A stretch of DNA of 64,000 nucleotides from Streptomyces ruber (GTDB lineage Bacteria; Actinomycetota; Actinomycetes; Streptomycetales; Streptomycetaceae). Below the pieces are notes generated by a model that saw only the letters and a list, made by a program, of their open reading frames with translations, did not search any database and had not been told where the DNA came from. The stretch's first letter is position 1; every line of letters begins with the position of its first letter. The stretch covers positions 1 through 64,000 of the forward strand of contig NZ_BMQK01000018.1 of NCBI RefSeq assembly GCF_014648075.1, written 5' to 3'. A program made the position numbers and the translations under genes. Shown here one piece after another: positions 35,545-55,872 of this stretch.

Positions 35545-35818
35545 GTCAGCTCGTACTGCAGGAGACGGTCGGCCAGGTCCGGTTGCCGTTGTGCTGGATG
35601 GTGACACCGAAGTTGTTGCCGTTGCCGTTGGGCCTGGCGGTGAGGGTCTGGGAGTTGGGGTAGGTGGCGCTGGTGTTCCAGGTGGAGAGGACCTTGGCGG
35701 GGGAGGGGATGTTCATGGTGACGGTCCAGTTGCTGGAGCCGCTGACGGAGACGTTGAGGTTGTAGCGGTCGCTCCACTGCTGGCCCGCGGAGAGGGTCGC
35801 GGAGCACCCGGTGCCGCC
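35545..35818. repeat. CBM2 coding repeat, copy 1
   Basis: This 274-bp stretch matches 36557-36830 with a single base difference that I could find (CTGG/CTCG), changing Gln to Glu. It encodes the CBM2 at the end of the CE4 esterase. Copy 2 encodes the CBM2 of the xylanase. Confidence 0.9.
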
Positions 35819-36526
35819 ACTGTCGCCGCCGCCCCCGTCGGGGGCCACCGCGCGGCCGGTTCGGGGGGAGATCATGCCGGAACACAGACCGCGGGCGGCC
35901 AGCCCCTGCGCGATGCGCGGGATCGCGGCGAGTGTGTTGGCCGGCCAGTCGTGCATGAGGATGACCTGGCCGTCGGTGAGCCGTGCGGCGGCCTGCACGA
36001 TCGCGTCGGTGCTCGCGTTGTTCCAGTCCTGTGAGTCGATGTCCCACATGACCTCGGTCAGACCGTACTTGGCCTCGACCGAACGCAGGGTCGCGTTGCT
36101 CTCTCCGTACGGGGGGCGGAAGAGTCTGGGTGTCCCGCCGCCCGCGTTGGCGATGGCCTGCTGGGTCCGGGACACCTCGGAGTCCATCTGCGACTGGCTC
36201 AGCTGGGTCATGTGCGGATGGGTGTAGCTGTGGTTGCCGATCCACATGCCGGCGTCGACCTGGGCCTTGACCTGACCGGGGTTGGCGGCGGCGTACTGGC
36301 CCTGGTTGAACATCGTGGCCCGCAGCCCGTTCTGCTTGAGCGCGTTGAGCAGGGCCGGGGTGCTGCCGGACGGTCCGTCGTCGAAGGTGAGCCCGACGTA
36401 ACCGTTGCAGGCGGCGGCAGCCTGTGCCGGGGCCGCATCGACGGCGGCGGTGCCCGTCACGGCCAATGTGCCGGCGGCGATTCCCGTGATCAGGGTGCGC
36501 AGGGACAGGGATGGTGTGATGCGCAT
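35546..36526 (-). CDS. axeA: Secreted CE4 acetylxylan esterase / polysaccharide deacetylase with CBM2
   Basis: A 326-residue two-domain secreted enzyme that removes acetyl groups from xylan. The signal peptide ends near APAQAAAA. The NodB/CE4 domain has [19 protein letters not shown] (motif 1, with the metal-binding Asp), [13 protein letters not shown] (motif 2 His pair), [14 protein letters not shown] (motif 3), [10 protein letters not shown] (motif 4) and VILMHDW (motif 5). A Gly/Asp linker leads to a C-terminal CBM2 ([20 protein letters not shown]). The ATG follows AGGAGG. It is 31 bp downstream of the xylanase gene. This xlnB-axeA order and enzyme pair is as described in Streptomyces lividans, on which the symbol is based. 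Confidence 0.93.
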
Positions 36527-36556
36527 GCGGGTGTCCTCCTGTGCGGCTCCGTGAGG

Positions 36557-36830
36557 GTCAGCTCGTACTGCAGGAGACGGTCGGCCAGGTCCGGTTGCCG
36601 TTGTGCTGGATGGTGACACCGAAGTTGTTGCCGTTGCCGTTGGGCCTGGCGGTGAGGGTCTGGGAGTTGGGGTAGGTGGCGCTGGTGTTCCAGGTGGAGA
36701 GGACCTTGGCGGGGGAGGGGATGTTCATGGTGACGGTCCAGTTGCTGGAGCCGCTGACGGAGACGTTGAGGTTGTAGCGGTCGCTCCACTGCTCGCCCGC
36801 GGAGAGGGTCGCGGAGCACCCGGTGCCGCC
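36557..36830. repeat. CBM2 coding repeat, copy 2
   Basis: Direct repeat of 35545-35818, 1,012 bp apart, at the 3' end of the xylanase gene. Confidence 0.9.
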
Positions 36831-37526
36831 GCCCCCGCCCCCGCCGCCGCCCGAACCGGTGCCGCCCACCGTGATGTTGGAACTGCCGCTGCTCTGGTAA
36901 CCCTCGGTCGCCATGATCATGTAGTAGTTGAAGGAGCCCATGCGCATTCCGGCGCGGGACCAGGCGTCGAAGTGGTTGCCGGTGGTGATGGTTCCGCCGG
37001 TCCGCTTCGACTGCCGGACGCTCCAGTACTGGTCGAAGGTGCGCGTGCCCTCCACGGACGGGGCGTTGTACCGCGTCGTCCTGTAGATGTCGTACGTACC
37101 GCCGTCACTGTTGACGGTGCCCATGAACGTTCCCGTGGGCCGGTAGGTGCCCCAGTTGTCGACGATGTAGTACTCGACGAGCGGGTTCGACGTCCACCCG
37201 TAGAGCGTCAGGTAGGCGTTGCCGGACGGGTTGAAGGTGCCCGAGTAGGTCACGGTCCTGCGGCTGCCGGTGCTCCAGCCCTTGCCGGCGACGAAGTTGC
37301 CGGTGTTGCGCCAGGAGGTGCTGTAGTTGCCGCCGGAACTCAGGTTCATGGACACCGTGTTGGGTGCGTCGGTCCAGAACGAGTAGTAGTAGCCCTCGTG
37401 TGTTCCGGTCTGGTTCGTGGTGACGACCGTGTCGGCGTGGGCGGCCGACGGGAGCAGCAGTGTGATCACGGCAGCGAGCACGACGGCCCAGCCGTGTTGG
37501 AGACTTCTGTGACTCAACGCGTTCAT
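36558..37526 (-). CDS. xlnB: Secreted GH11 endo-1,4-beta-xylanase with CBM2
   Basis: A 322-residue secreted xylanase. The signal peptide runs to LLLPSAAHA. The GH11 jelly roll shows [38 protein letters not shown] with catalytic Glu in LVEYYIV, and the second catalytic Glu in [17 protein letters not shown] Gly-rich linker joins a CBM2 nearly identical to that of the downstream esterase. The ATG follows AGGAGG. Inverted repeats with TTTCG/CGAAA arms lie 90-250 bp upstream, at a likely regulatory position. Xylan backbone cutting here and deacetylation by the next gene are complementary. Confidence 0.95.
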
Positions 37527-37615
37527 CTCCGTGCTTCCTCCTGCGGGAGAGGGGTGCGGGTAGGCGCGGGACGCGAATGGCGAACAGTGTTGGCGTGGCC
37601 TCGTCAAGTGTCAAT

Positions 37616-37799: not shown

Positions 37800-38383
37800 G
37801 GTCTCAGAGCACGCCTCTGCGTCCGAGGAACGTGCGGTGCGGGTCGTCTTCGACCCGGTCGGCCGAATGCCACGGCGGCCGACCTGACGGTGGTCCTGGG
37901 TGCCCCCGCGGTGGGCGAGCAGCGAGAGAACGCCGCCGGACCGTCTCGGTCGGGTACGGCGGATCAACGGGTACGGTACGGCTGGCCCGGAAGGCGGCCG
38001 GACAACTCCCCGAGGGAGGGGTGACCGCCCTCGTCCTCTCCGATTCCGCGCACGAGCCGGTACCCGGCCTCACCCTGTCCAACGGCCTCCGCCCCGGCCC
38101 GGCCGCATTCGCCAAGTCCCTGGCGAACGAGGTGGGTCCGCGTGGCATCAGGGCGGTGGGCCTCCTCCCGTACCGCATCGCCACCGACAGGGCGCTCGAG
38201 ATCGATGCCCGCACCGGTGACGTGGAGGCCGCCCGTGCGCGCGACTCCGCGGACATCCCGTTGCGGCGGTACGGCACTCTGGAGGAGTTCGGGAAGGTGG
38301 CCGCGATCCTGTTGCCCCCTGCCGCCTCCTACCTGACGGGCGTCACGGTCCCGGTGGACGGTGGCGGTCTGCGCGGCTTCTGA
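37800..38383 (+). pseudogene. Short-chain dehydrogenase remnant, N-terminus lost
   Basis: From about 37960 to the stop the plus strand encodes the second half of an SDR: GTVRLARKAAGQLPEGGVTA, GPAAFAKSLANEVGPRGIRA, PLRRYGTLEEFGKVAAILLP and YLTGVTVPVDGGGLRGF. The glycine-rich cofactor motif is absent, and the region before it needs frame changes (ADLTVVLGAPAVGEQREN in another frame). The catalytic Tyr/Lys pair is not recognisable. It is therefore called a remnant. Confidence 0.7.
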
Positions 38384-38442: not shown

Positions 38443-38736
38443 ATGATCTGCCACGTGGTCCTGTTCAAGTTCCATGACGGGGTGCGCCATGACGACCCAC
38501 GATTCCTCGAAGCGGACAGGGACGTCCGTGTCCTTCCGGAAGCGATTCCCGGGATCCTGGAGTGCGGGTGCGGCCGGGACTTCGCCGACCGGGACATGGC
38601 GTACGACTACGCCGTCATCGGCACCTTCGAGAACGGGAGCGCCGTGGCGTCGTACCCCCACCACCCGGTCCACGTGCGCGGCGTGGACCAGTGGCGGCAG
38701 TTCTCCACCTGGGTGGTGACGGACTTCGAGCTGTAG
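38443..38736 (+). CDS. Dabb (stress-responsive A/B barrel) family protein
   Basis: A 97-residue dimeric alpha/beta barrel protein. MICHVVLFKFHDGVRHDD is the typical first strand with the conserved His and Phe, and DYAVIGTFENGSAVASYPHHPVH matches the centre of the family, ending WVVTDFEL. The ATG follows GGGAGGAACG. Members include olivetolic-acid-cyclase-like enzymes and proteins without known activity. It is convergent with the amidotransferase gene of the AurF operon and need not be part of it. Confidence 0.85.
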   Translation: MICHVVLFKFHDGVRHDDPRFLEADRDVRVLPEAIPGILECGCGRDFADRDMAYDYAVIGTFENGSAVASYPHHPVHVRGVDQWRQFSTWVVTDFEL

Positions 38737-38811: not shown

Positions 38812-39513
38812 TCACGACAGTACGTCGTCCAGCCAGCGGTTGAAGAACCTCCTGCCCTGGCTCTCGAGCGAGCTCGCGTGCTGTCGCGTATCCGCCCGGA
38901 TCTCCTCCACGGACACCCCCGGAGACTGCGCTATCTCAAAGGCATGGCCGATCAGCCAGGATTCGACGGCGGCACCGAGAACTTCCGCATGGAACTGCAG
39001 TCCCAGGGCAGAGCGCCCGACAGCGAAGGCCTGGTTCCCGCACACTGGTGTGGAAGCGAGACGGGAGGCCCCCGTCGGTAGATCGAAAGTGTCGCCGTGC
39101 CAGTGCAGTACCGGTGTGGTCAACTCGGCGAGAGGGGATGCGGCCCCTGTTCCGGACAGTTCGACCGTCCCCCAGCCGATCTCCTTGCTCTCGGCCGGAT
39201 AGACCCTGGCGCCCAGCGCAGCAGCGATCAACTGCGCACCCAGGCAGATTCCCAGCAGGGGTTCCGCACGGGACAGACGCATGTCGATCAGGGCCAACTC
39301 CTCCTTCAGGAAGGGGTACTCCGCTGTCTCACATGCTCTTACCGGCCCGCCGAGAATGGTGAGCAACCGGGGGGAGCGCCGTTCGACCTGTTCCAGCAGT
39401 CGCCCCTGACCGGCATCCACGTACGTGACGTCGATGCCTCGTTCCTGCAACACCTGCTCGAAGGAGCCCAGGTCCTCGAAAGCGACGTGTCGGATCGCCA
39501 CAGCTTCTGTCAT
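38812..39513 (-). CDS. Class I glutamine amidotransferase-like protein (GMP-synthase type)
   Basis: A 233-residue stand-alone class I amidotransferase. LLTILGGPVRACETAEYPFL is the oxyanion strand, LLGICLGAQLIAAALGARVY holds the nucleophile Cys, and ALGLQFHAEVLGAAVESWL holds the His/Glu pair, so the triad is complete. The N-terminus AIRHVAFEDLGSFEQVLQER is as in GMP-synthase-like proteins. The ATG follows GAGGACGAG. It is the last gene of a four-gene minus-strand operon after the reductase gene (59 bp gap). Such proteins transfer ammonia or hydrolyse gamma-glutamyl amides (as in polyamine catabolism); here the acceptor is unknown. Confidence 0.88.
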   Translation of the reverse strand: MTEAVAIRHVAFEDLGSFEQVLQERGIDVTYVDAGQGRLLEQVERRSPRLLTILGGPVRACETAEYPFLKEELALIDMRLSRAEPLLGICLGAQLIAAALGARVYPAESKEIGWGTVELSGTGAASPLAELTTPVLHWHGDTFDLPTGASRLASTPVCGNQAFAVGRSALGLQFHAEVLGAAVESWLIGHAFEIAQSPGVSVEEIRADTRQHASSLESQGRRFFNRWLDDVLS

Positions 39514-39572
39514 CGCCTCGTCCTCGGGAACGGATGGTGCATCGGATCTCTTCGACCGGTAGTGCCCTCTGC

Positions 39573-40580
39573 TCAGAGGTCCAGCACGAGCCGGGAGCCG
39601 CCGCGGGCCCGGGAGACGCAGATCAGCATGCTGGATCCGGACGCCCTCTGCTGCTCGGTGAGCAACGAGTCCCGATGCTCGGGAGCTCCTTCGATGACGT
39701 TTGTCTCGCACGTCCCGCAGAAGCCTTCGCGACAGGCCGAAAGCGTCACCACGCCCGCCCGATCAGCCACATCGAGGATCGACTCGTGCGGTGGGACCGT
39801 CAGGGTCGTGTCCGAGCGCCGGCACACCACCTCGAAGGTCGTGACGTGGTTCGCCTCATCGGCTGTCACCGGTCGGGCCCCGAAGCGCTCCGTGCGCAGG
39901 CTGCCGGCCGGCCACCTGACGCAGTGACTCTCGACAGCGCCGATCAGGGGCTCGGGCCCGCAGCAGTACACCAGGCAGTCCAGGCGCGGTGTGCCCAGTG
40001 CCTTCGCCAGCGGCAGCAGCCCCGCTTCGTCCTGCGGATGGACCCGCACCCGGTCACCGTAGCCCGTCAGCTCGTCGAGGAAGGCCATGGACGCCCGCGA
40101 CCGCCCGCCGTAGAGCAACTCCCAGTTCCGGCCGTCGGCCTCGGCCGAGGCCACCATCGGCAGAAGCGGCGTGATGCCTATACCGCCCGCGATGAAGAGA
40201 CAGCGGTCGGAAGGCGCCAGCGGGAAATGGTTGCGCGGGCCTCTGGCCCGCACGGTCACCCCGACTCCGAGTGCCTGGTGCACGAGGCGGGACCCGCCAC
40301 GACCGCCCGGCTCGAACAGGACGGCAATGCGCCACGCGTACCGATCGGCCGGACTCCCGCAGAGCGAGTACTGCCGTACCAGGTCGCCCCCCGGCAGGAT
40401 GAGATCGATGTGGGCCCCCGGTGTCCAGCTGGGCAGTTCTCGCCCCGACGGATCGACCAGGGTGAGGGCGACCACACCGTCCGCGACTCTTGTCCGTTCG
40501 CTCACGCGAAGGACAAGGGTGTGTTCGTGGTGAGGTTCGGGCACCCTCGGGGCTGACGGACTCGCATGGTGATTAGCCAT
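39573..40580 (-). CDS. Flavin/[2Fe-2S] oxidoreductase (PDR/VanB type)
   Basis: A 335-residue electron-transfer reductase in the order flavin domain (about 20-120: RQYSLCGSPADRYAWRIAV), NAD(P)H domain (about 120-235: CLFIAGGIGITPLLPMVASA, YCCGPEPLIGAVE) and C-terminal ferredoxin domain (about 250-335). The iron-sulfur ligands are C-x4-C-x2-C in LSACREGFCGTCETNV and a last Cys in MLICVSRA. The domain order and RQYSLCG motif are those of phthalate-dioxygenase-reductase-type proteins, usually FMN-dependent. It lies 87 bp after the AurF-like gene in the same operon, so it is the natural electron donor for that diiron enzyme (inference). Confidence 0.93.
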   Translation of the reverse strand: MANHHASPSAPRVPEPHHEHTLVLRVSERTRVADGVVALTLVDPSGRELPSWTPGAHIDLILPGGDLVRQYSLCGSPADRYAWRIAVLFEPGGRGGSRLVHQALGVGVTVRARGPRNHFPLAPSDRCLFIAGGIGITPLLPMVASAEADGRNWELLYGGRSRASMAFLDELTGYGDRVRVHPQDEAGLLPLAKALGTPRLDCLVYCCGPEPLIGAVESHCVRWPAGSLRTERFGARPVTADEANHVTTFEVVCRRSDTTLTVPPHESILDVADRAGVVTLSACREGFCGTCETNVIEGAPEHRDSLLTEQQRASGSSMLICVSRARGGSRLVLDL

Positions 40581-40667
40581 CTTCTGCCTGCTTCGCGGTC
40601 GTTCATTTCTCGGGTGCGAGTCGGCCGATGCGCTCTCATGGTCGCGTACCGGCCCTACTCGGTCAGG

Positions 40668-41642
40668 TCAGGGGATCAGGCCCTGCCGGGCGAAGCTGTC
40701 GTGGGCCGCGGCGGAGTCCAGGAGGCCGATCTCCTCCGCCAGTGAGACGACTCCCGAAGAGTCAAGCGACGCCAGGTCGGCAGTACCCGACATTTTGCAT
40801 TCGCGTATCATCTCGTCAGCCTGAGGGAATCCGATCTGCCGCAGAAGCAACAGCCAGACGTCCAGCTCACGGTCCGCGAACCAGAGCACTGGTTCGGGCA
40901 GCATGCCGGCGAAGACGGCGCGCTGGTCAACCGTCAGCTCGTGGGAGAAGAGGTGAGCCAGAGACCTGAAGAGCGGACTGTGCGCCATCTCGTCGTGGCG
41001 GTGTGCCGCCACGGTCATGCGGTTGAAGGACTGGATCTCGTCGCTCTCGCTGAGCAGATGCAGGTAGTCGCTGATGAATATCTCCGAGACCACCGCTGTG
41101 GCGAACTGAATCATGCGCCTCTGCCACGGATCGCTGAGATCGCGCTGGCGTTCCCGCATCCGCCGGACCAGGTTGAACTGTGGAACCACCACGTCGTCCA
41201 GCCCTCGACGACTGCGCGTCAGCCGACTCGCCTGCTCGACGAGGTGCACGTGGTACACCTCATCCACCATCGTCTCGCAGACCGCTTTCTGTGAGGCGGC
41301 CGCACGTAGGCCGGGCATCGCTCCTCCGATGATGTCGAGGCAGGCCGGGTTCACGATCTCCGTCTCGATCTGCACAGTTTTTGCGTTGTACATCAGCCAG
41401 CCGCAGCTCAGAACGCGGGACCGCATGTCGGGCGAGCACGACTGGTACTGCGGATGTTGTCTGAACGGGAGAAGGTGTTCCAGGAAATCCTCCTTGTCCG
41501 ATTCGAAGAAGGGCTCGAGTTCTTGTTTCTTGACATAAGCCCGCCTGGGCCAACTGTCGGCGAGCCGATCAAGTATGAGCTTGGTCTGGGACAGGGAACG
41601 GTCCTCGGCCCGGGACACCGGGCCGCCGTCGTCCGTCGTCAT
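40668..41642 (-). CDS. AurF-type diiron N-oxygenase
   Basis: A 324-residue ferritin-like diiron oxygenase related to p-aminobenzoate N-oxygenase AurF and to CmlI, which turn aryl amines into hydroxylamines or nitro groups. The ligand pattern is complete by eye: Glu in VQIETEIVNPACLD, ExxH in VDEVYHVHLVE, Glu in AVVSEIFISDYL, and His-x3-Glu-x2-His in AAHRHDEMAHS. The rest is helical, as expected. The ATG follows GAAGGAATCG. The gene is 31 bp after the beta-propeller gene and before a matching reductase. The amine substrate is not obvious: no carrier protein, NRPS or PKS lies nearby, so a free aromatic or aliphatic amine is likely. Confidence 0.9.
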   Translation of the reverse strand: MTTDDGGPVSRAEDRSLSQTKLILDRLADSWPRRAYVKKQELEPFFESDKEDFLEHLLPFRQHPQYQSCSPDMRSRVLSCGWLMYNAKTVQIETEIVNPACLDIIGGAMPGLRAAASQKAVCETMVDEVYHVHLVEQASRLTRSRRGLDDVVVPQFNLVRRMRERQRDLSDPWQRRMIQFATAVVSEIFISDYLHLLSESDEIQSFNRMTVAAHRHDEMAHSPLFRSLAHLFSHELTVDQRAVFAGMLPEPVLWFADRELDVWLLLLRQIGFPQADEMIRECKMSGTADLASLDSSGVVSLAEEIGLLDSAAAHDSFARQGLIP

Positions 41643-41673
41643 CGGTTCGATTCCTTCGTCCGGTCGCCTGCGG

Positions 41674-42900
41674 TCAGCGAGTTCGCCCGGCGGCGAACTC
41701 CCCGTGGAACATGCTCAGCCCGTCATCGGCGTCGTAGACTTTGGCCACTGTGTCCGTGCTGGTGTCGATCCGGATGAGGTGGTCACTGACGAAGCTGGAG
41801 ATGAACACGGAATCCTCCTCGTACATGGCCGTGGCGGTGTGGGCGTTGCGGAAGCCGGTCGGCAGTTCGCGGCCAGGACGCAGTCGTTTGATGAAAGAGG
41901 GCCTGTCGCGGTCGTAGATGTTCCAGATGGAGATGTAGCCGTCCCGTCCGTAGTCGAAGGGATCTTCCGTTCGCCCACCCCATGAATCCTCTTCCGCCAC
42001 GTACAATTTGCCCTTCGCGATCGCCAGATCCGAGGGGGGCCTGTACATGCCCGCTCCGTCCGGTGTGCCCGTGGGACCGATGACGCGTTCGGCGGTGTCC
42101 AGCCGGGTGTCGATCAGCCAGACGCTCGGCCCGACGACCGTGGCACCTGGAGGGGTCCGTGACGTGGACCCGGCCTGCATGGCCCCGACATAGGCGAAGC
42201 GGTTGTCGATCCATGCCGCATAGTGCGCGAATGCGCCGTACTCGGTCTCCGTGCCCAACGCGATCGCATGTGTCGCCTTGACCGTCCCGGTGTGCCGGTC
42301 GGGCCGGTAGACACGCACCTCAGCGATGTCGTAGTCATACCCGACGCCCAGTCCGACGGTGCCCTTCCTGTTGAAGTTCACCCCGTGGGTCTGCCTGGTC
42401 AATTCGCGCCTCGAATACAGAACCCGCTGTTTGAGCTTGCCGTCATGGTCGATCCTGAATCCGCGCACGCGATCGTCCGTGTAGTGCGTGACGTAGGTGA
42501 ACCTCGAACGCGGCAGGAATGTCGGGCCGTGCGTCTGCGTGTAGAGAGGCCTCGTCCACGGCATGATCGGCTGGTCCGGGGTCGTCTGCATGAGGTTCGG
42601 CATGTCGGACGGCGTACCGGTCGGGTCCAGCGGGACGTTCTGCCGCAGCTCCACGTCGGCGGCTCCCGCATCCCAGTTGATGTCGTTCACACGCAGGACG
42701 ACGATGGACGCGTCGAAGGGCGGAACAGCGTCCGTTGCGATGTACACCGTCTCCTCGTCGTCGGCGATCCACGTGTGCTGAGGGCTGGCCGGCTGCCAGC
42801 CTTCGATGTCCTCGAGCGGCACCTTGACCAGCTTGTCCTCGTCGGCATTGACCAGGACGAGCTCCTTGGACTTCATGTTCACTCCGGTGAGAATATGCAT
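41674..42900 (-). CDS. Beta-propeller protein heading the AurF operon
   Basis: A 408-residue protein whose repeated strands (TWIADDEETVYIATDAVPPF, TYVTHYTDDRVRGFRIDHDG, GVGYDYDIAEVRVYRPDRHT, RFAYVGAMQAG, KLYVAEEDSWGG, GYISIWNIYDRDRPSFIKRL, SVFISSFVSDHLIRIDTSTD) are spaced like the blades of a seven-bladed YVTN/NHL-type propeller. There is no signal peptide or membrane helix, so it should be cytosolic, which is unusual for this fold class. I see no enzyme motif. The ATG at 42900 follows GAGGAG; the open frame extends upstream but loses protein character. As first gene of the operon it may bind the substrate or product of the N-oxygenase, or act as an enzyme of the lactonase/sugar-oxidase kind. 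Confidence 0.75.
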   Translation of the reverse strand: MHILTGVNMKSKELVLVNADEDKLVKVPLEDIEGWQPASPQHTWIADDEETVYIATDAVPPFDASIVVLRVNDINWDAGAADVELRQNVPLDPTGTPSDMPNLMQTTPDQPIMPWTRPLYTQTHGPTFLPRSRFTYVTHYTDDRVRGFRIDHDGKLKQRVLYSRRELTRQTHGVNFNRKGTVGLGVGYDYDIAEVRVYRPDRHTGTVKATHAIALGTETEYGAFAHYAAWIDNRFAYVGAMQAGSTSRTPPGATVVGPSVWLIDTRLDTAERVIGPTGTPDGAGMYRPPSDLAIAKGKLYVAEEDSWGGRTEDPFDYGRDGYISIWNIYDRDRPSFIKRLRPGRELPTGFRNAHTATAMYEEDSVFISSFVSDHLIRIDTSTDTVAKVYDADDGLSMFHGEFAAGRTR

Positions 42901-43799
42901 CCTCTTGCTCTCCTCGTTCGACGTGGATGTGCGATGGGCGTGTGAATACGCGAACGCAACAGGCGCTGAAATGCGCTGAACGGCTGTGCCGCTGCGGTTG
43001 ACAGAGAACCCCATGACCGTCGTTCGGGATCTGGCGCGCCGAGTAAACGGAACGTGCGCGGGAAAATGCCGGCGCAGTGCGCACGGCAGGAAGTCGTCCG
43101 TGGACTTCTGAGGTGCACCTGTCTTACAGATATCTCGAAGGTGCACAGTGGCGCGGAATCGTGGCGCCAGGCATGTGAATCATGGTCGCTTCGCCTCCCC
43201 CGTTGGCCTTAGCGACGAACCCCAGGCTAACAGCATCCCCCCTCATTCGGTCATCGCGAGGAACAGCGCGACGCATGTACATGTAATCAGTCGGTAGTTG
43301 ATTGTCGATGCTTCTCGCGCCTGGTTGGAGATAGCTGGAATGCACAGAGAAGCAATCGGGAAGTTCCGTTTCCCGAGGTAGCTGTGCGGGGCCGCTGGTT
43401 GCCTTCCGTACCGTGCCGACGCCGCCACGGACGGCCGGGTACGCCACCGGTGTGCACGTCAAGACGGCGGCGAAGGAGGCGGCCGACGACGTGTCCGCGT
43501 CCGGACGAATCGGTACCGGTGACCGCTGAGAGCGGCGTACCGGTGCTCCGCCTCGGACGGGCGCGGCGGGCTGCCGCAGACAGCAGCCGGGCCGTACACG
43601 GCAGCACATGGTCTCGCGAGCCGAAGCGGCATGGCCCGGCCGCCGTAGAGCGACTGCGCTCCTCCGGCCGGACCTACTGGCCGGAGACGAGGACTGCGCG
43701 CATGAGGACGTCCATCCGACGGTCAGCGGGAACGGAGCCTGCCAGCGGCTGCTCGTCGCTCAAGGCGTGTACTGGGTTGTGAACAAGGCGGTCGCCCGG
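42901..43799. other. About 900 bp intergenic region
   Basis: It should contain the promoter of the AurF operon at its left end. Open frames on both strands here have no recognisable domain. A mildly AT-richer zone lies near 43120-43380. Confidence 0.5.
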
Positions 43800-44798: not shown

Positions 44799-47477
44799 GT
44801 GCAGCAGAACCTGCGGCAGGACGGTGGGACATCGCTGACGGCCGGAAGGGATGTGCACCAGAGCACCGTGGTGGAGGCTCCGGCCCCTGACCGCCCAGTG
44901 GTCACGCACGGCCTGCCACCGGACATCGTCAGTTTCACCGGCCGGGAATACGAACTGGAACAGCTGCTGGCCGCGGCGGCGCCGGGGCGGGTGGTGAACA
45001 TCTACACCGTGGACGGGATGCCCGGCATCGGTAAGACAGCCCTGGTCACCCACGCCGCACACCGGCTCACCGAGCGCTTCCCGGACGGGCAGTTCTTCCA
45101 CAACCTGCACGCCCACACCCCCGGCCAGACTCCCGCCGACCCCGTCGACGTCCTGGCTGTGCTGCTGACCGAACTGGGCATCGACCCCCGCAACCTTCCC
45201 GCGACCCTGGAAGGACGCTCCGCTCTGTGGCGCGACCGGCTCACCGACAAGAGAGCGCTGCTGGTCCTCGACGACGCGGCCGGGCACGCCCAGATCGCTC
45301 CGCTCCTGCCCAGCAACCCGGGCTGCCTGACCTTGGTCACCAGCCGCGCCCGCCTGATTGCCCTGGACGGCGCCCACCCCCTGTCCCTGGACCCCCTTGA
45401 ACCCGGCGCCGCCGCCGACCTCTTCACCCGCCTGGCCCACCGCACTCCGATCGGCGGCGAGAAGGACGCGGTGGACGAGGCGGTGCGGCTGTGCGGGTAC
45501 CTGCCGCTGGCCATCACCCTGCTCGCCGGACGCCTCTGCCACAGACGCAAGTGGCCCATTGCCGAGTTCACCGTCGAGTTCGCCGCCGCCCAGGACCGCC
45601 TGGGCGAGTTCGACGGCAGCGGCGATCGCGCGATCTACACCGCCTTCACCCTCTCCTACCAGGACCTCACCTCCGGCCAGCAACTCCTGTTCCGCCGCAT
45701 CGGTATGCACCCCGGCCCCGACATCGACACCTATGCCGCAGCCGCCCTCAACAACACGTCCCTCCCCGAGACCCGCCACAGCCTGGAAGCCCTCTTCACC
45801 CACCACCTCCTCGAAGAAACCGCCCCCAACCGCTACCAGCCCCACGACCTCCTGCGCGCCTACGCACGCACCCTCACCGCCGACACCGACCCCGCCGACG
45901 ACCGCGCCCAGGCCCTTGCCCGACTTCTGGACTACTACCTGCACACCGCCCAGACCGCTGATCGCCGCCTTCGGATCACCCCCCGCCACGATCCTCCTCC
46001 CACCCCCGCGCCAGTGGCCTCACCGCCCCTCGCCACCTGGGCGGATGCCCTGAGGTGGATGCGCATCGAACGCGCCAACCTCTTCGCCTGCCTCGACGCC
46101 CCGGCCCCCGACCGAGCCACCCGCAGCATCCACCTGACCGAGGCCATGGCCTCCTTCCTCCGACGGGAAGGACCATGGCCTCAGGCCGCCACCCTCCACC
46201 AACACGCCGCCGGCACCGCTTACCACCAGCGCGACCGCCAGAGCCTCGCCAACGCGCTCCATGACCTCGGTGTCACGCGTCGCCTGACCGACGACTACAA
46301 GGAGGCGTACGCCGTCCTGCAACGTGCGCGGGACCTGTACCAGGACCTCGGTGACCGGCTCGGGCAGGCCAACGCCCTCAACGAGCTCGGGGTCGTGCGG
46401 TACCTGACCGACGACTACGTCGAGGCGTCCGCATACCTGCGGCGGGGCCGGGATCTCTACCAGGACCTCGGTGACCGGCTCGGCCAGGCCAACGCCCTCA
46501 ACGAACTCGGCGCCGTGTGCCGCCTGACCTGCGACTACGTGCAGGCGTCCGATCTTCAGCAGCGTGCCCGGGACCTGTACCAGGACCTCGGTGACCGGCT
46601 CGGCCAGGCCAACGCCCTCAACGAGCTCGGGGTCGTGCGGTACCTGATGGGCACTTACACGCAGGCGTCCGATCTCCTGCAGCAGGCCCGGAACCTGTAC
46701 TGGGACATCGGCGACCGGCTCGGCCAGGCCTGCACACTCAACCGGCTCGGGGTCGTGCGGTACCTGATGGGCGACTACGCGGAGGCGTCCGATCTCCTGC
46801 AACAGGCCCAGGACCTCTATCAGGGTCTGGGCAGCCCGCTCGGTCAGGCCAACACCCTGAACCGGCTCGGGGTGGTGCGCTACCTGACGGGCGACTACGA
46901 AGGCGCATCCGCACTGGTAGAGCAGGCCCTGTGCCTGTGCCGGGAAGTCGGCAGCCGGCTCGGCCAGGCAAGCACCCTCAACGAACTCGGTGTCGTACGC
47001 CGCCTGACCGGCGACTATGAGGAGGCGTCCGATCTCCTGGAGCAGGCGCGAGGCCTGTACCGAAGCCTCGGTGACCGGCTCGGTCAGGCCAACGCGCTGC
47101 ACCGGCTCGGCGTGGTGCGCCGCCTGACGGGCCATCACGTCGAGGCGTCCGATCTCCTGCAGCGAGCCCGGACTCTCTACCAGGACCTCGGCAGCCCGCT
47201 CGGCGAGGCCGAGGTGATGAACAGCCTGGGAACGCTTCTCGCCGAGTGCGGGAAGGCACGGGAAGGACGTGCGCGACATCAGCGAGCCCTGCAGCTGGCC
47301 CGGGGAATACACAATCCCCTGGAAGAGGCCCGCGCCCTGGAAGGGTCGGCACGCTGCCTGGTCCGGACCGGCGACCGCGCGGCCGCCGTGCGGGAGCTAC
47401 GTCAGGCCGTCGACATCTACCGGCGTATCGGAGCCGCCGGGACCAGTTCCGCCGCTGAGTACCTGGCGCGCCTTTAG
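44799..47477 (+). CDS. STAND ATPase: NB-ARC domain with a long TPR array
   Basis: An 892-residue signal-transduction ATPase. It starts (GTG) with GGTSLTAGRDVHQSTVV, then VSFTGREYELEQLL leads to the NB-ARC domain: Walker A GMPGIGKTAL (residues 73-82), Walker B ALLVLDDAAGHAQ, TLVTSRARL (sensor region) and CGYLPLAITLLAGRL (GxP). A winged-helix region, FRRIGMHPGPDIDTYAAAAL, HDLLRAYARTLT, follows. From about residue 480 to the end there are at least nine 40-residue TPRs of the form LYQDLGDRLGQANALNELGV. Their DNA is highly repetitive with a 120-bp period. There is no HTH or SARP domain. In such proteins the repeats sense a ligand and the ATPase oligomerises; the effector may be the small gene upstream (inference). 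Confidence 0.92.
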   Translation: MQQNLRQDGGTSLTAGRDVHQSTVVEAPAPDRPVVTHGLPPDIVSFTGREYELEQLLAAAAPGRVVNIYTVDGMPGIGKTALVTHAAHRLTERFPDGQFFHNLHAHTPGQTPADPVDVLAVLLTELGIDPRNLPATLEGRSALWRDRLTDKRALLVLDDAAGHAQIAPLLPSNPGCLTLVTSRARLIALDGAHPLSLDPLEPGAAADLFTRLAHRTPIGGEKDAVDEAVRLCGYLPLAITLLAGRLCHRRKWPIAEFTVEFAAAQDRLGEFDGSGDRAIYTAFTLSYQDLTSGQQLLFRRIGMHPGPDIDTYAAAALNNTSLPETRHSLEALFTHHLLEETAPNRYQPHDLLRAYARTLTADTDPADDRAQALARLLDYYLHTAQTADRRLRITPRHDPPPTPAPVASPPLATWADALRWMRIERANLFACLDAPAPDRATRSIHLTEAMASFLRREGPWPQAATLHQHAAGTAYHQRDRQSLANALHDLGVTRRLTDDYKEAYAVLQRARDLYQDLGDRLGQANALNELGVVRYLTDDYVEASAYLRRGRDLYQDLGDRLGQANALNELGAVCRLTCDYVQASDLQQRARDLYQDLGDRLGQANALNELGVVRYLMGTYTQASDLLQQARNLYWDIGDRLGQACTLNRLGVVRYLMGDYAEASDLLQQAQDLYQGLGSPLGQANTLNRLGVVRYLTGDYEGASALVEQALCLCREVGSRLGQASTLNELGVVRRLTGDYEEASDLLEQARGLYRSLGDRLGQANALHRLGVVRRLTGHHVEASDLLQRARTLYQDLGSPLGEAEVMNSLGTLLAECGKAREGRARHQRALQLARGIHNPLEEARALEGSARCLVRTGDRAAAVRELRQAVDIYRRIGAAGTSSAAEYLARL
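46321..47220. repeat. 120-bp tandem repeats encoding TPRs
   Basis: About eight tandem units, recognised by CTCGGTGACCGGCTCGG near 46350, 46470, 46590 and onward at 120-bp steps, with decreasing identity toward the 3' end. The first three units are nearly identical in places. Confidence 0.85.
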
Positions 47478-50184: not shown

Positions 50185-52944
50185 TCACCGTCCGGGGCAG
50201 GGGTGGTGGGCCGGCTGCCCCGGAAGATACGAGGAGCGTTCCTCCCGGGTGAGCTCCCGGTGCACGGCACGACAGATCGTGCGGACCGCCTCGTGCGGCT
50301 CGGTGGGTACATCGGTGTCCCAGACCTGAACGTCGTCCATGCTGCCCGCCACCAGGATCTTGCCGGCCGGACCGGCCGGACCGAACACCATCGACGTGAT
50401 GGAACCGGTGCCGGTCAGGGTGGCGCGCAGCCTCCGGGTGCCCGTGTCGTACAGCCGTATCTGGCCGTCGTCGTTCCCGGCGGCCAGAGTACGGCCGTCC
50501 GGGCTGGACGCCACTTCGACTGTGTCGTCATCGGGCAGGGAAGCCAGTTCTCTCCGAGCACGTACGTTCCACAGGTGGACCGAGCCTTCCTGGTCGGCGG
50601 TGGCGAGGGTGCCGTCGGGGGCGAAGGTCATCGAATACACGTCGTCGGTGTCGGGGAGGGTGGTGAGTTTCTTCCTGGTGGTCACGTCCCATAGGCGGAC
50701 CGGGCCCTCCTGGTCGATGGTGGCGAGGGTGCCGTCGGGTCCGAAGGTCACCGACCACACGTCGTCGGTGTCGGGGAGGGTGGTGAGTTTCTTCCTGGTG
50801 GTCACGTCCCATAGGCGGACCGGACCCTTCAGGTCGATGGTGGCGAGGGTGCCGTCGGGTCCGAAGGTCACCGACCACACGTCGTCGGTGTCGGGGAGGG
50901 TGGTGAGTTTCTTCCTGGTGGTCACGTCCCATAGGCGGACCGGGCCCTTCTGGTCGGCGGTGGCGAGGGTGCCGTCGGGTCCGAAGGTCACCGACCACAC
51001 GTCGCCGGTGCCGGGGAGGGCCGTGAGTGCCTTCCTGGTGGTCACGTCCCACAGACGGACCGGACCCTTCGACACGTCGGTGGCCATGGTGTGGCCGTCC
51101 GGGCTCAACGCCACGCGGAACCCGGCGTAGCGGTCTTCGGTCAGAAGACGCTTGTGAGGCAGGGCGGCAGCAACACGCAGACTGTCGACGGCCTCGTCGG
51201 TCGCGTACGCCTGGTAGGCATGCAGGGCCAGCAGGGAGGCCAGGTCCGGGTTGTTGCGCATGAGCTCTTTGGACTGGGCGGCGAGTCGCCAGGACAGGTT
51301 GGTCCGCTGTGCGGCGACGGTCTCCCGCTGCTGTTTCCAGGCGATCGCGCCCGCGGTCAGTGCCACGGCCAGCAGGAGGGAGACGGTGACGGCGAACCGG
51401 CGGAGGCGGCGGGCCGCCGCCCGCGCCGCCCGCCGCTCGCGGTCGCGGGCGGCGGTGCTGGCGGTCAGGAAGGTGTTCTCCAGCGGGGTCAGGTCGTCCG
51501 GGCGGGCCGTGGCGGGAAAGGCCTCCTCGGCAGCGTCGAGCCGGGTGCCGCGATAGAGCGCGCCGGGGTCGTGCTCCAGGTCGTGCCACGCTGTGGCGGC
51601 CTCGGTGAGGTGGCGGTGGATGCGCAGCCGGTCGCGCTCGGTGTCGAGCCAGGCGCTCAGGCGGGGCCAGGCGGTGATCAGGGCCTCGTGGGCGAGGTCG
51701 ACGGTGGTGTCGTCGCAGGTGATCAGGCGGGCACGGGTGAGGTGCTCGAGAACGGCGGCGGTGTCGGACCGGTCGCCGAAGTCCAGTTCGGTGCGGGGCG
51801 CGGGGCGGCGGGTGTCGGGGGTGCCGTCGCCGGGGGTGATCAGACGGAGCAGCAGGGAGCGGGCCTGGACGGCCTGAGCGGGGGTCAGGCCGGTGTAGCA
51901 GTCCTCGGCGGTGCGGGCGATGGCACCGTGCAGCCCGCCGGCCGCCTCGTAGGCGGCTTCCGTCAGCCTGCGGCCCTGGCGGCGGCGCCAGGTCTCCAGC
52001 AGTGCGTGGGACATCAGCGGCAGCCCGCCGGGCCGGCCGTCGGTCTCGGCCAGCAGCCGGGCGGTCAGTGACCGCTCCACGATGAGTCCGGCCGCCTGGG
52101 CCGGTCCCACGATGGCCTGGCGCAGTTCATCGCGGCTCATCGGTCCCACCAGCAGCAGGGTGCCGCGCAGTGCGGTGGCCAGGGGCGCGTGTTCGGCGCA
52201 GCGGCCGAGGAAGTCGGCGCGGACCGCGATGACCACCCGCAGACGGCTGCCGGGTTCGCGTGCGGCCAGCAGCCGGCCGAGGAACTCGGTGCGTTCGGCC
52301 GGGTCGGTGCACAGGGTGAACAGCTCTTCGAACTGGTCGACGACGACCACGGTGTCCCCGGTGGTGTCGTCCTTCGCGACCAGCGCGGTGGCGTGGGTGC
52401 GGGCCGGGTGCGGGCCGGGCGCGAGGATGCGCAGAGCGGCCAGGCGCAGCCGCGTGGCGTTCCCGTGTTGCAGGGCGGGCAGCAGACCTGCCCGCAGCAG
52501 CGAGGACTTGCCGCTGCCCGACGGGCCGGCCAGGGCGGTGAACGGTTCCCGGCCGACCGTGTGCAGCAGGTCGCCGACGAGTTCGTCGCGGCCGAAGAAC
52601 AGGGCGGCGTCGGCGGGCTCGTAGCGGGCCAGGCCCCGGTAAGGCGCTCCCGCCGCGTCCTCCGGAGCCAGGCGGGCGGCGACCACGGCGGCCGTGACCC
52701 GCCAGCGCTCTTCCCACTCGCCGGGGTCGGCGCCGCAGGCGGTCACGTAGGCGAGGGTGACGGCCAGTGACGGCAGCCGTTCCCCGGCAGCGGCCTCGGA
52801 CAAGGTGCTCGGCGAGTACCCGGCCCGCTGGGCCATGACCCGGTAGGTCGGCTGCCCCGCCTGCCTGCGCACGACCCGTAGCGCATGAGCGAACTCCTGC
52901 ACCGGCCCGGCGTCCGGATCCAGCGGCTTCTCCTGACGTGCCAT
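50185..52944 (-). CDS. HTH-STAND-WD40 protein
   Basis: A 919-residue protein. Residues about 15-75 form a Cro/Xre-like HTH (GQPTYRVMAQRAGYSPSTLS). Residues about 98-440 form a STAND NTPase: YRGLARYEPADAALFFGRDE, Walker A AGPSGSGKSSLLRAG, Walker B VVVVDQFEELF, and GLPLMSHALLETW. A membrane helix (FAVTVSLLLAVALTAGAIAW) lies at about 540-560. WD40 blades fill about 600-880. Five central blades share SVTFGPDGTLAT and KGPVRLWDVTTRKKLTTLPD nearly unchanged, with DNA identical over long runs. The C-terminus RTICRAVHRELTREE...YLPG is usual for the family. The ATG follows GGAAGAAGG. It converges on the caspase remnant. I expect a membrane-anchored sensor whose blades vary or homogenise under selection. 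Confidence 0.92.
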   Translation of the reverse strand: MARQEKPLDPDAGPVQEFAHALRVVRRQAGQPTYRVMAQRAGYSPSTLSEAAAGERLPSLAVTLAYVTACGADPGEWEERWRVTAAVVAARLAPEDAAGAPYRGLARYEPADAALFFGRDELVGDLLHTVGREPFTALAGPSGSGKSSLLRAGLLPALQHGNATRLRLAALRILAPGPHPARTHATALVAKDDTTGDTVVVVDQFEELFTLCTDPAERTEFLGRLLAAREPGSRLRVVIAVRADFLGRCAEHAPLATALRGTLLLVGPMSRDELRQAIVGPAQAAGLIVERSLTARLLAETDGRPGGLPLMSHALLETWRRRQGRRLTEAAYEAAGGLHGAIARTAEDCYTGLTPAQAVQARSLLLRLITPGDGTPDTRRPAPRTELDFGDRSDTAAVLEHLTRARLITCDDTTVDLAHEALITAWPRLSAWLDTERDRLRIHRHLTEAATAWHDLEHDPGALYRGTRLDAAEEAFPATARPDDLTPLENTFLTASTAARDRERRAARAAARRLRRFAVTVSLLLAVALTAGAIAWKQQRETVAAQRTNLSWRLAAQSKELMRNNPDLASLLALHAYQAYATDEAVDSLRVAAALPHKRLLTEDRYAGFRVALSPDGHTMATDVSKGPVRLWDVTTRKALTALPGTGDVWSVTFGPDGTLATADQKGPVRLWDVTTRKKLTTLPDTDDVWSVTFGPDGTLATIDLKGPVRLWDVTTRKKLTTLPDTDDVWSVTFGPDGTLATIDQEGPVRLWDVTTRKKLTTLPDTDDVYSMTFAPDGTLATADQEGSVHLWNVRARRELASLPDDDTVEVASSPDGRTLAAGNDDGQIRLYDTGTRRLRATLTGTGSITSMVFGPAGPAGKILVAGSMDDVQVWDTDVPTEPHEAVRTICRAVHRELTREERSSYLPGQPAHHPCPGR
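50590..51075. repeat. Four nearly identical 120-bp WD40 repeats
   Basis: Each unit contains GTGGCGAGGGTGCCGTCGGG and GTGGTCACGTCCCA at exact 120-bp steps (for example 50668, 50788, 50908 and 51028). The inner copies differ by only a few bases. This is much less divergence than between the outer blades of the same gene, implying recent amplification or gene conversion. Confidence 0.9.
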
Positions 52945-53395: not shown

Positions 53396-53667
53396 CGGTC
53401 GGCACCAGGGGAGAAGCTGATGCGCGCGGCAGGGGCGGGAGTGCCCGCGGAGCGGCCGAGAGCCGATCTGCGACCGGGCAGGCACGCGGCGGTGGGCGAG
53501 CCGGCCGGGCCGGTGAGCGCGCAACCGTCGGGAGAGCGGCTGCGCGCCCCATGACGGCCGGCGCCGTGCCGGTCGGAGCGGCGGGTCGAAGCGCTGACGA
53601 TCCACCGCCGGGCCCGGGCGCTGCCGGCGGACGAACCGGGCCCCGAGCCCGGCCGGGAGGTGGGAAC
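53396..53667 (+). pseudogene. Remnant of a SARP-type BTAD domain
   Basis: In shifting frames this stretch reads MRAAGAGVPAERPRADLRPG, RHAAVGEPAG, GERLRAP and then VEALTIHRRARALPADEPGP, EPGREV. This is the end of a bacterial transcriptional activation domain as in AfsR/SARP proteins (pattern RxxEALxxYRRxRxLLxDELGxEPG). The OmpR-like DNA-binding part expected upstream is not recognisable. It leads directly into the NB-ARC gene, which was therefore once an AfsR-like regulator. Confidence 0.6.
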
Positions 53668-55872
53668 GTGATCCGAGCAGCGCTGAGCGACAGGTCCGGC
53701 CTGGCGGGACCTGACGGGAAACACCCGGCACCGGCGCCGTGTTCGCTGCCCGGTGACGTCGCCGGCTTCACCGGCCGCGAGCGGCAGGTGGAGTGGCTCC
53801 ACCGGCTGGCGACGCCGGACAGGACCTCCACGGCGGCGGTGATCGGTCTGCTCTCCGGTGCCCCGGGAGTGGGCAAGACCGCGCTGGCGGTGCACTGGGC
53901 CCACCGGACCCGCGCGGCCTTCCCCGACGGCCAGCTGTACGTGAACCTGCGCGGCTACGACCCCGAACAGCCCATGACCGCGGGCGAGGCACTGGCCCAC
54001 CTGCTGGCCGCACTCGGCTTGCGCGGACCGGACATTCCCCTGGACGTGGACGACCGTTCCGCACGCTACCGCAGCGAACTGGCCGGACGGCGCATGCTGA
54101 TCGTTCTGGACAACGCGGCCACCGCCGAACAGGTGCGGCCGCTACTGCCCGGTACCCCGGCCTGCGTGACGCTGGTGACCAGCCGCGACGCCCTGCCCGG
54201 CCTGGTCGCCCGGCACGGCGCCCACCGTCTCGTCCTGGACACGCTGCCCGCCGCCGATGCCCGCACCCTGCTGCGGCGGCTGATCGGCCCTCAGGAACAG
54301 GTGGAACACCAGGCCGTGGCCACACTGGCGGAGTTGTGCGGACGGATGCCCCTGGCGTTACGGCTGGTCGCCGAGCTGGCCGTCGCCCGCCCCCACCACA
54401 GCCCGACCGTCCTGGCCGCCGAACTGGCCGACCGGCGACGACGACTGGATCTCCTGGACGGTGACGCGGACACGAGCGCCGGTGTCCGGGCGGTGATCTC
54501 CTGGTCCTGCCAGCGCCTCCCCGCCCACGCGGCCCGTGCCTTCCGCTCGCTGGCGCTGCACCCCGGCGCCGACTGGGACCCCTACGCAGCTGCCGCCCTC
54601 ACCGGCACCCCCGTCGGCACGGCACGGCGGCTGCTGGACCGGCTGGCCCGCGCCCACCTCGTGCAGCCCACCGGTCCGGACCGGTACACGATGCACGACC
54701 TGCTGCGCGCCTACGGCGCCGAACTGGCCGCCGCCACCGACCCGGAACCCGACCGGCACGCCGCGCTGACCCGCCTGTTCGACCACTACCTGGCCACCGC
54801 CACCACCGCCACCGCCACCCTCGGCCTCCCCGCGGTGGACCGGCGCCCCCGGCCCTTCCGGTTCCGACAGGTCGCACCCGCCCCGCCGGTCGGTGACCCG
54901 GACACGGCGCGGGCCTGGCTGAACGCCGAGCGCGCCAACCTGGTCACCGTCTGCGCCCACACCGCCGGCCACGGCTGGCGGGAACATGCCGCGCGCCTGG
55001 CCGCCGTACTGTTCGGTTTCCTGCTCGCCAGCGGGCACTACACCGAGTCCCTGACCCTTCACACCCATGCCCGCCGGGCCGCCTGCACCAGCGGCGACCC
55101 CCACAGCGAGGCCTACGCACTGACCAGCCTGGGCTTCGTCCACTGGCGCCGTGGCTCCTACCCGGACGCCCGTGCGCACCACCGGTTGGCCCTGGACCGG
55201 TTCCGGCAGGCCGGCGACCGTACCGGCGAGGCCTTTGCCCTGCTCAGCCTGGGCCTGGTCCATATGCGGCAGGGAAAGTGCCGGCGAGCCGCGGAACACT
55301 GCCGCGAGGCCCTCCGCCTCTTCGAACAGCTGGGTGAGCGGCGGGGCCAGGCATATGGGTGGACGGCCCTGGGCCTGGCCTGCCTGCGGCAGGAGGACGG
55401 CCGGCAGGCCCTGGAGTACCAGCACAGGGCTCTGGACCTCTTCGAGCGTCTGGGCAACCCGTTCGGCATGGCCTGTACGCTGACCAACCTGGGCCTTGCC
55501 CACTGCCGGCAGGGGCACTACCAGCAGGCTGTGGAGTGCCACCGCCGGAGTCTGGACTACGCCCGGCAGATCGGTCACCGGACCACGGAGACCGAGGCGC
55601 TCAACGGCTTGGGCGAAGCCCTCCAGGCAAGTGGCCGGGCCGTGCAGGCCGGCGCCCGGCACACCGACGCGCTGGCCGTCGCCGAGCGGATCGGGGAACG
55701 GTACGAACAGGCTCGCGCGCACCAGGGCATCGCCGTCGCCCATCACACCACGGGCGACTTCCACCGGGCCCGTCGGCATTGGGAGAACGCCTTGCAGCTG
55801 CACACAGAACTCGGCGTGCCCGACGGCGAGGCCCTCGCAGCACGATGGCGAGCCCTGGCCCGTCCACGCTGA
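53668..55872 (+). CDS. NB-ARC/TPR protein derived from an AfsR-like regulator
   Basis: A 734-residue protein from the GTG at 53668, which has GGGAGGTGGGAAC just upstream; the same frame is open from 53551. LPGDVAGFTGRERQVEWLHR opens the NB-ARC domain. Walker A is SGAPGVGKTALAV, Walker B MLIVLDNAATAEQV, then TLVTSRDALPGL, LCGRMPLALRLVAEL and HDLLRAYGAELAA. The C-terminal half has six TPRs such as GQAYGWTALGLACLRQEDGR. The DNA-binding and activation domains normally in front of this architecture survive only as a frameshifted remnant. The protein may therefore keep ATPase and sensor functions without DNA binding, or the break may be recent. Confidence 0.88.
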   Translation: MIRAALSDRSGLAGPDGKHPAPAPCSLPGDVAGFTGRERQVEWLHRLATPDRTSTAAVIGLLSGAPGVGKTALAVHWAHRTRAAFPDGQLYVNLRGYDPEQPMTAGEALAHLLAALGLRGPDIPLDVDDRSARYRSELAGRRMLIVLDNAATAEQVRPLLPGTPACVTLVTSRDALPGLVARHGAHRLVLDTLPAADARTLLRRLIGPQEQVEHQAVATLAELCGRMPLALRLVAELAVARPHHSPTVLAAELADRRRRLDLLDGDADTSAGVRAVISWSCQRLPAHAARAFRSLALHPGADWDPYAAAALTGTPVGTARRLLDRLARAHLVQPTGPDRYTMHDLLRAYGAELAAATDPEPDRHAALTRLFDHYLATATTATATLGLPAVDRRPRPFRFRQVAPAPPVGDPDTARAWLNAERANLVTVCAHTAGHGWREHAARLAAVLFGFLLASGHYTESLTLHTHARRAACTSGDPHSEAYALTSLGFVHWRRGSYPDARAHHRLALDRFRQAGDRTGEAFALLSLGLVHMRQGKCRRAAEHCREALRLFEQLGERRGQAYGWTALGLACLRQEDGRQALEYQHRALDLFERLGNPFGMACTLTNLGLAHCRQGHYQQAVECHRRSLDYARQIGHRTTETEALNGLGEALQASGRAVQAGARHTDALAVAERIGERYEQARAHQGIAVAHHTTGDFHRARRHWENALQLHTELGVPDGEALAARWRALARPR

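Follow-up and report, generated by a model that had tools for sequence, protein, structure and literature searches.

A propeller-led and probably dnf-like operon of oxygenase, reductase and amidotransferase genes in Streptomyces ruber

Organization of the operon and its surroundings

Four intact genes, for a beta-propeller, a diiron oxygenase, a reductase and a glutamine amidotransferase, follow one another on the minus strand of the window, the analysed stretch of 64,000 nucleotides of DNA from the soil bacterium Streptomyces ruber (Table 1). The gaps between them are 31 bp (propeller to oxygenase), 87 bp (oxygenase to reductase) and 59 bp (reductase to amidotransferase), and coordinates and strand are exactly as claimed in an earlier reading made from the DNA letters alone (the sequence-only reading). 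As no terminator-like hairpin is found on the coding strand inside these gaps, it is plausible that all four genes, the propeller gene included, share a single transcript. Relatives keep the start codon of the propeller gene and the AGGAG before it; a search upstream of this gene for a conserved operator returned the ribosome-binding site alone, and no sigma-70-like promoter was found.

Table 1. Features of the S. ruber operon, in window coordinates
Feature	Position	Strand	Remarks
Seven-bladed beta-propeller gene	41674-42900	-	408 aa; without Pfam family; first in operon
AurF-family diiron oxygenase (nox), DnfA-like	40668-41642	-	324 aa
Flavin/NAD(P)H/[2Fe-2S] reductase (pdr), DnfB-like	39573-40580	-	335 aa
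Stand-alone class I glutamine amidotransferase (gat), DnfC-like	38812-39513	-	233 aa
Ribosome-binding region of propeller gene	42901-42920	-	AGGAG before ATG, conserved

Near the operon, 38000-38383 (+) encodes some 125 C-terminal residues like those of a short-chain dehydrogenase; a convincing N-terminal half is lacking, and the piece is probably what is left of a gene. A Dabb-domain gene comes next (38443-38736). The C-terminal domains of a polysaccharide deacetylase and a GH11 xylanase (35546-36619 and 36558-37607, both on the minus strand) are almost identical, which suggests that the domain was copied recently. Elsewhere in the window, three STAND-type NTPase genes lie close to one another: NB-ARC/TPR at 44799-47477, nSTAND1 with WD40 and HTH at 50185-52944, and NB-ARC/TPR at 53551-55872.

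Sequence features of the three enzymes

The sequence-only reading described a diiron oxygenase with an apparently complete ligand set, a matching flavin/[2Fe-2S] reductase and a class I amidotransferase with a full triad, with no assembly line nearby, and domain searches and alignments of relatives bear it out on each point. The oxygenase matches the Pfam family AurF (PF11583) at 2e-47, and its diiron ligands E93, E128, H131, E187, H214, E218 and H221 line up with the ligands of AurF and CmlI and are all invariant in relatives. In the reductase, Pfam identifies Fer2 (8.9e-13) and an NAD-binding domain. The amidotransferase matches GATase (PF00117, 5.5e-15) and the NCBIfam model PRK07053 (310 bits, cut-off 250), and its C90, H175 and E177 are invariant. 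The conserved gene set includes no carrier or acyl-activating protein.

Distribution and conservation of the cassette

A scan for close relatives of the oxygenase, with one genome for each of 84,980 species, yielded three loci, in Streptomyces spiroverticillatus, Streptomyces sp. KL109B and Actinoplanes aureus (L002-L004). All four genes are contiguous in each of the three, although the reductase and amidotransferase have swapped places in A. aureus; the occurrence of the four genes together elsewhere, which the sequence-only reading had named as the check on its operon, is thus seen in three other genomes. The propeller gene comes first in 4/4 cassettes, at no more than 31 bp from the oxygenase gene in three of them and at 46 bp in L002. 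Flanking genes differ between loci, except that a large SARP-type regulator lies immediately downstream in both other Streptomyces (L002, L003). The propeller is the most conserved protein of the four (73-81% identical in L002-L004). Estimates of dN/dS inside the clade are about 0.2-0.25 (propeller, oxygenase) and 0.2-0.37 (reductase, amidotransferase); at these values (about 0.2-0.37 overall), the cassette is under purifying selection.

In sampled genomes the propeller is rare, being present in one of 393 Streptomyces and one of 396 Actinomycetota. As a control set, 35 AurF-family loci from other Streptomyces genomes were taken with up to about 6 kb on each side, and none has any of the cassette's reductase, amidotransferase and propeller genes in that range (0/35). 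Together with the co-occurrence in three other genomes, this rules out chance clustering. Among the close-relative loci the three-enzyme set has so far been found only with the propeller. Searches of plasmids, viral contigs and PHROGs found nothing. The S. ruber genome also carries a second, different AurF-family gene outside the window (G000:C3:480650-481456, locus L028), which scores 329 bits to Pfam AurF.

Placement of the oxygenase among AurF-family enzymes

In a tree of 46 oxygenase sequences, the S. ruber clade falls outside the AurF/CmlI clade (support 98/97) and outside the TsnB7 clade. The S. ruber oxygenase has the Pfam family, fold and seven ligands in common with AurF and CmlI, but it differs from them in clade and in ligand spacing, AurF and CmlI carrying insertions of 1 and 2 residues between ligands 3 and 4; AurF and CmlI also have an assembly-line context and no amidotransferase. 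The NCBIfam AurF score is 112 against a cut-off of 620. On tree and ligand spacing, identity as an arylamine N-oxygenase is rejected.

TsnB7 is an AurF-family enzyme that acts on glutamine (PMC13418202). The TsnB6/TsnB7/TsnB9 system of trichostatin A and benzohydroxamic acid resembles the S. ruber operon in using such an oxygenase, with glutamine converted to glutamate gamma-hydroxamate. However, it works with the helper TsnB6 and an AsnB-type hydroxyamidotransferase, whereas S. ruber has a reductase and a class I amidotransferase. The S. ruber oxygenase is about 25% identical to TsnB7, and no matches to TsnB6 or to the AsnB-type TsnB9 were found in L002-L004. Membership in a trichostatin-type hydroxamate cassette is rejected on the clade and on the lack of TsnB6/TsnB9 matches in L002-L004.

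By path, the nearest row to the S. ruber clade is Tistrella, although the fork joining them is drawn open. This nearest relative outside the clade (45% identity) is encoded on plasmid pTM3 of Tistrella mobilis and is adjoined by an amidotransferase of the same NCBIfam family as that of S. ruber (47%), a MocR-like regulator and a serine hydroxymethyltransferase (SHMT), while the adjacent flavoprotein differs in type from the S. ruber reductase. Neighbours of these classes (MocR-like regulator, amidotransferase, SHMT-type) are reported for dnf clusters (PMC11440038). The Tistrella locus (L006:4438-9957: MocR-like regulator, PRK07053 amidotransferase, SHMT and AurF-family oxygenase; no propeller) is itself a probable dnf-type cluster. 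On a Pantoea agglomerans plasmid (L007:5393-11176) an AurF-family oxygenase has a [2Fe-2S] protein and an ATP-grasp protein after it and an MFS transporter, an alpha/beta hydrolase and an N-acetyltransferase before it, and this locus looks like a small biosynthetic cluster.

Comparison with dnfABC

In Alcaligenes the gene order dnfA-dnfB-dnfC corresponds to oxygenase, reductase and amidotransferase (PMC8629993, PMC9478400, PMC11160463). These are the genes of direct ammonia oxidation (dirammox), a system defined by hydroxylamine (and N2) formed from the nitrogen of glutamine. The three enzyme classes and their order are the same in S. ruber as in dnfABC of Alcaligenes ammonioxydans and A. faecalis, in both cases with no carrier protein. 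The ligands published for DnfA are residues 88, 123, 126, 182, 209, 213 and 216 (PMC9478400); those of the S. ruber oxygenase are displaced by +5 throughout, with identical spacing. The Alcaligenes cluster differs in having a MocR regulator, PLP enzymes and dnfD, with no propeller reported, whereas the S. ruber cassette is in an actinomycete host and begins with the propeller. No MocR-like regulator or PLP enzymes (DnfR, DnfT) were found around the S. ruber cassette or in L002-L004, and the MocR/PLP genes are regarded as an accessory rather than a catalytic trait of dnf.

The sequence-only reading had suggested a small nitro, nitroso or hydroxylamine compound made from a free amine by a route that it did not recognise. 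The route can now be given a probable name, since an oxygenase, a reductase and a stand-alone amidotransferase in that order are the dnfABC set. A free amine as nitrogen source gives way to glutamine, which is reported for dnfABC (PMC11440038, PMC11160463, PMC9478400). As for the product, the hydroxylamine type is retained; the position of the oxygenase outside the arylamine clade of AurF and CmlI makes a nitro or nitroso compound less likely.

Predicted fold and putative histidine ring of the propeller

The propeller has no match to a Pfam family, a PDB sequence search with it gave none, and a literature search found no work joining AurF and a propeller. Two structure models of moderate confidence (mean pLDDT 66 and 69) have seven blades closed by a C-terminal strand, upholding the seven-bladed fold of the sequence-only reading; model confidence is lowest around residues 94-144, near blade 3, which carries H124. 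Foldseek matches include seven-bladed propellers such as 6-phosphogluconolactonase (structural matches at 11-13% identity), as well as the propellers of hydrazine synthase and cytochrome cd1; all are of low identity and point to the fold rather than to a function.

The equivalent position in the first strand (strand A) of the seven blades is occupied by H399, H42, H124, H172, H226, D291 and H354. For His at six of seven equivalent positions p is about 1e-9 with a fixed register; as the register was picked by eye, this overstates the significance. Six of the seven ring residues are invariant in the six known propeller sequences, H124 being Asn in two stand-alone paralogues, and 218/408 positions, dozens of them polar, do not vary among the six. 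The six histidines are predicted to line the central channel, where the ring side chains may meet on the axis and bind a metal, as a putative metal site.

To 6-phosphogluconolactonase and other YVTN-type propellers the protein is likened by a common predicted fold and a weak profile match. E. coli Pgl has no comparable His ring, and the propeller profile has no significant match to E. coli Pgl or YncE. Against PRK11028 (cut-off 370) the S. ruber protein scores 12.9 bits and its best relative 25.4 bits. Identity as a 6-phosphogluconolactonase is rejected on this score, far below the cut-off, and on the lack of a matching ring. Nitrous oxide reductase (NosZ) has many axial His ligands at its CuZ centre, and hydrazine synthase uses hydroxylamine-level nitrogen. 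These two propellers are works-like parallels alone, with no sequence relation found; the propeller subunit of hydrazine synthase is among the generic fold matches, and the S. ruber propeller is cytosolic.

The two stand-alone paralogues (64-67% identical) are in two Actinoplanes genomes (L019:9087-10301 and L020:9173-10387). The genes around them form a shared set that comprises an ECF sigma factor (L019), a TPR-like protein, a subtilase-family peptidase and an epoxide-hydrolase-like protein; the three enzyme genes are absent, and the oxygenase profile finds nothing in one of the two genomes. Thus, the function of the propeller can exist apart from the cassette, and it need not involve hydroxylamine.

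Proposed chemistry and alternative explanations

In E. coli with dnfABC, hydroxylamine is formed from glutamine, and glnA (glutamine synthetase) is required for all other nitrogen sources (PMC11440038). As cited in PMC11440038 and PMC11160463, Miao et al. (2023) reported that DnfAB forms glutamate gamma-hydroxamate and that DnfC hydrolyses both glutamine and glutamate gamma-hydroxamate. This is disputed, as DnfA bound hydroxylamine and no glutamine binding was seen (PMC11440038). By gene order and ligand positions, which liken it to Alcaligenes, and with Tistrella as a stand-in, the S. ruber operon is probably, though far from certainly, a dnf-like, hydroxylamine-forming cassette with a new propeller that would handle the product. 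In such a cassette, the reductase would take electrons from NAD(P)H and deliver them to the diiron oxygenase. The oxygenase would then N-hydroxylate glutamine at its side-chain amide and so form glutamate gamma-hydroxamate. The amidotransferase would act on this as a hydrolase, so that hydroxylamine is released or handed on, and the propeller, encoded first, would be a dedicated partner of the three enzymes. Glutamine as substrate and hydroxylamine as product are inferred from the characterised relatives.

The oxygenase and reductase may instead supply glutamate gamma-hydroxamate for a natural product. An acceptor acid would then receive hydroxylamine from the amidotransferase, and the product would be shaped or protected by the propeller. 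The activity of TsnB7 on glutamine and the SARP-type regulators, which are typical of secondary metabolism, are consistent with this, but the oxygenase groups outside the TsnB7 clade, neither a TsnB6 helper nor an AsnB-type transferase is nearby, and the set is conserved without acyl-activating or carrier proteins, so that we consider such a supply rather doubtful. Lower still is the probability of classic amine N-oxygenation, by which a small free amine would become a nitro, nitroso or hydroxylamino compound while the amidotransferase feeds ammonia to a separate amidation. Although the AurF-family fold and complete ligand set would suit it, this is improbable given the position of the oxygenase outside the AurF/CmlI clade, an amidotransferase without a synthase partner, and the lack of an amine-making or amine-activating gene conserved with the set.

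If the dnf-like reading of the three enzymes is kept, the leading but tentative reading of the propeller is a metal-dependent enzyme whose central His6Asp ring would oxidise, condense or detoxify hydroxylamine or the hydroxamate. A non-catalytic propeller, which would bind the three enzymes or the product as a scaffold, an inhibitor or a sensor and use the His positions for structure, is also possible without being the expected case: propellers commonly act as scaffolds, His is frequent in the inner strands of YVTN-type propellers, and the paralogues occur without the enzymes, but the many invariant positions, with dozens of polar ones and six of the seven ring residues among them, exceed the needs of a scaffold. 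That the propeller is merely a neighbour, with another transcript or function, is highly improbable. The stand-alone paralogues would allow it, yet its first place and close spacing in all four cassettes and its rarity elsewhere argue against it. More speculatively, and with considerable doubt, the propeller could be the founder of a new metalloenzyme family in which the on-axis His6Asp ring carries a metal centre for converting hydroxylamine produced in situ (e.g. by forming an N-N bond or by oxidising it to NO or nitrite), and the operon would then be a new actinomycete nitrogen-oxidation pathway.

Significance

The novel part of the cassette is the added propeller and not the three enzymes. 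Its His ring is a candidate for a new metal site. Why heterotrophs oxidise ammonia, and by what means, has long been asked, and the role of dnf is disputed between nitrogen loss, redox balance and secondary metabolism. The secondary-metabolite view can be put to the test with so compact a set of four genes, which in relatives has SARP regulators beside it. If the operon is dnf-like, hydroxylamine chemistry of the dnf type, described so far from Proteobacteria in the papers cited here, would extend to Streptomyces and Actinoplanes, and the dedicated extra protein of the actinomycete cassette may reveal what the hydroxylamine is for.
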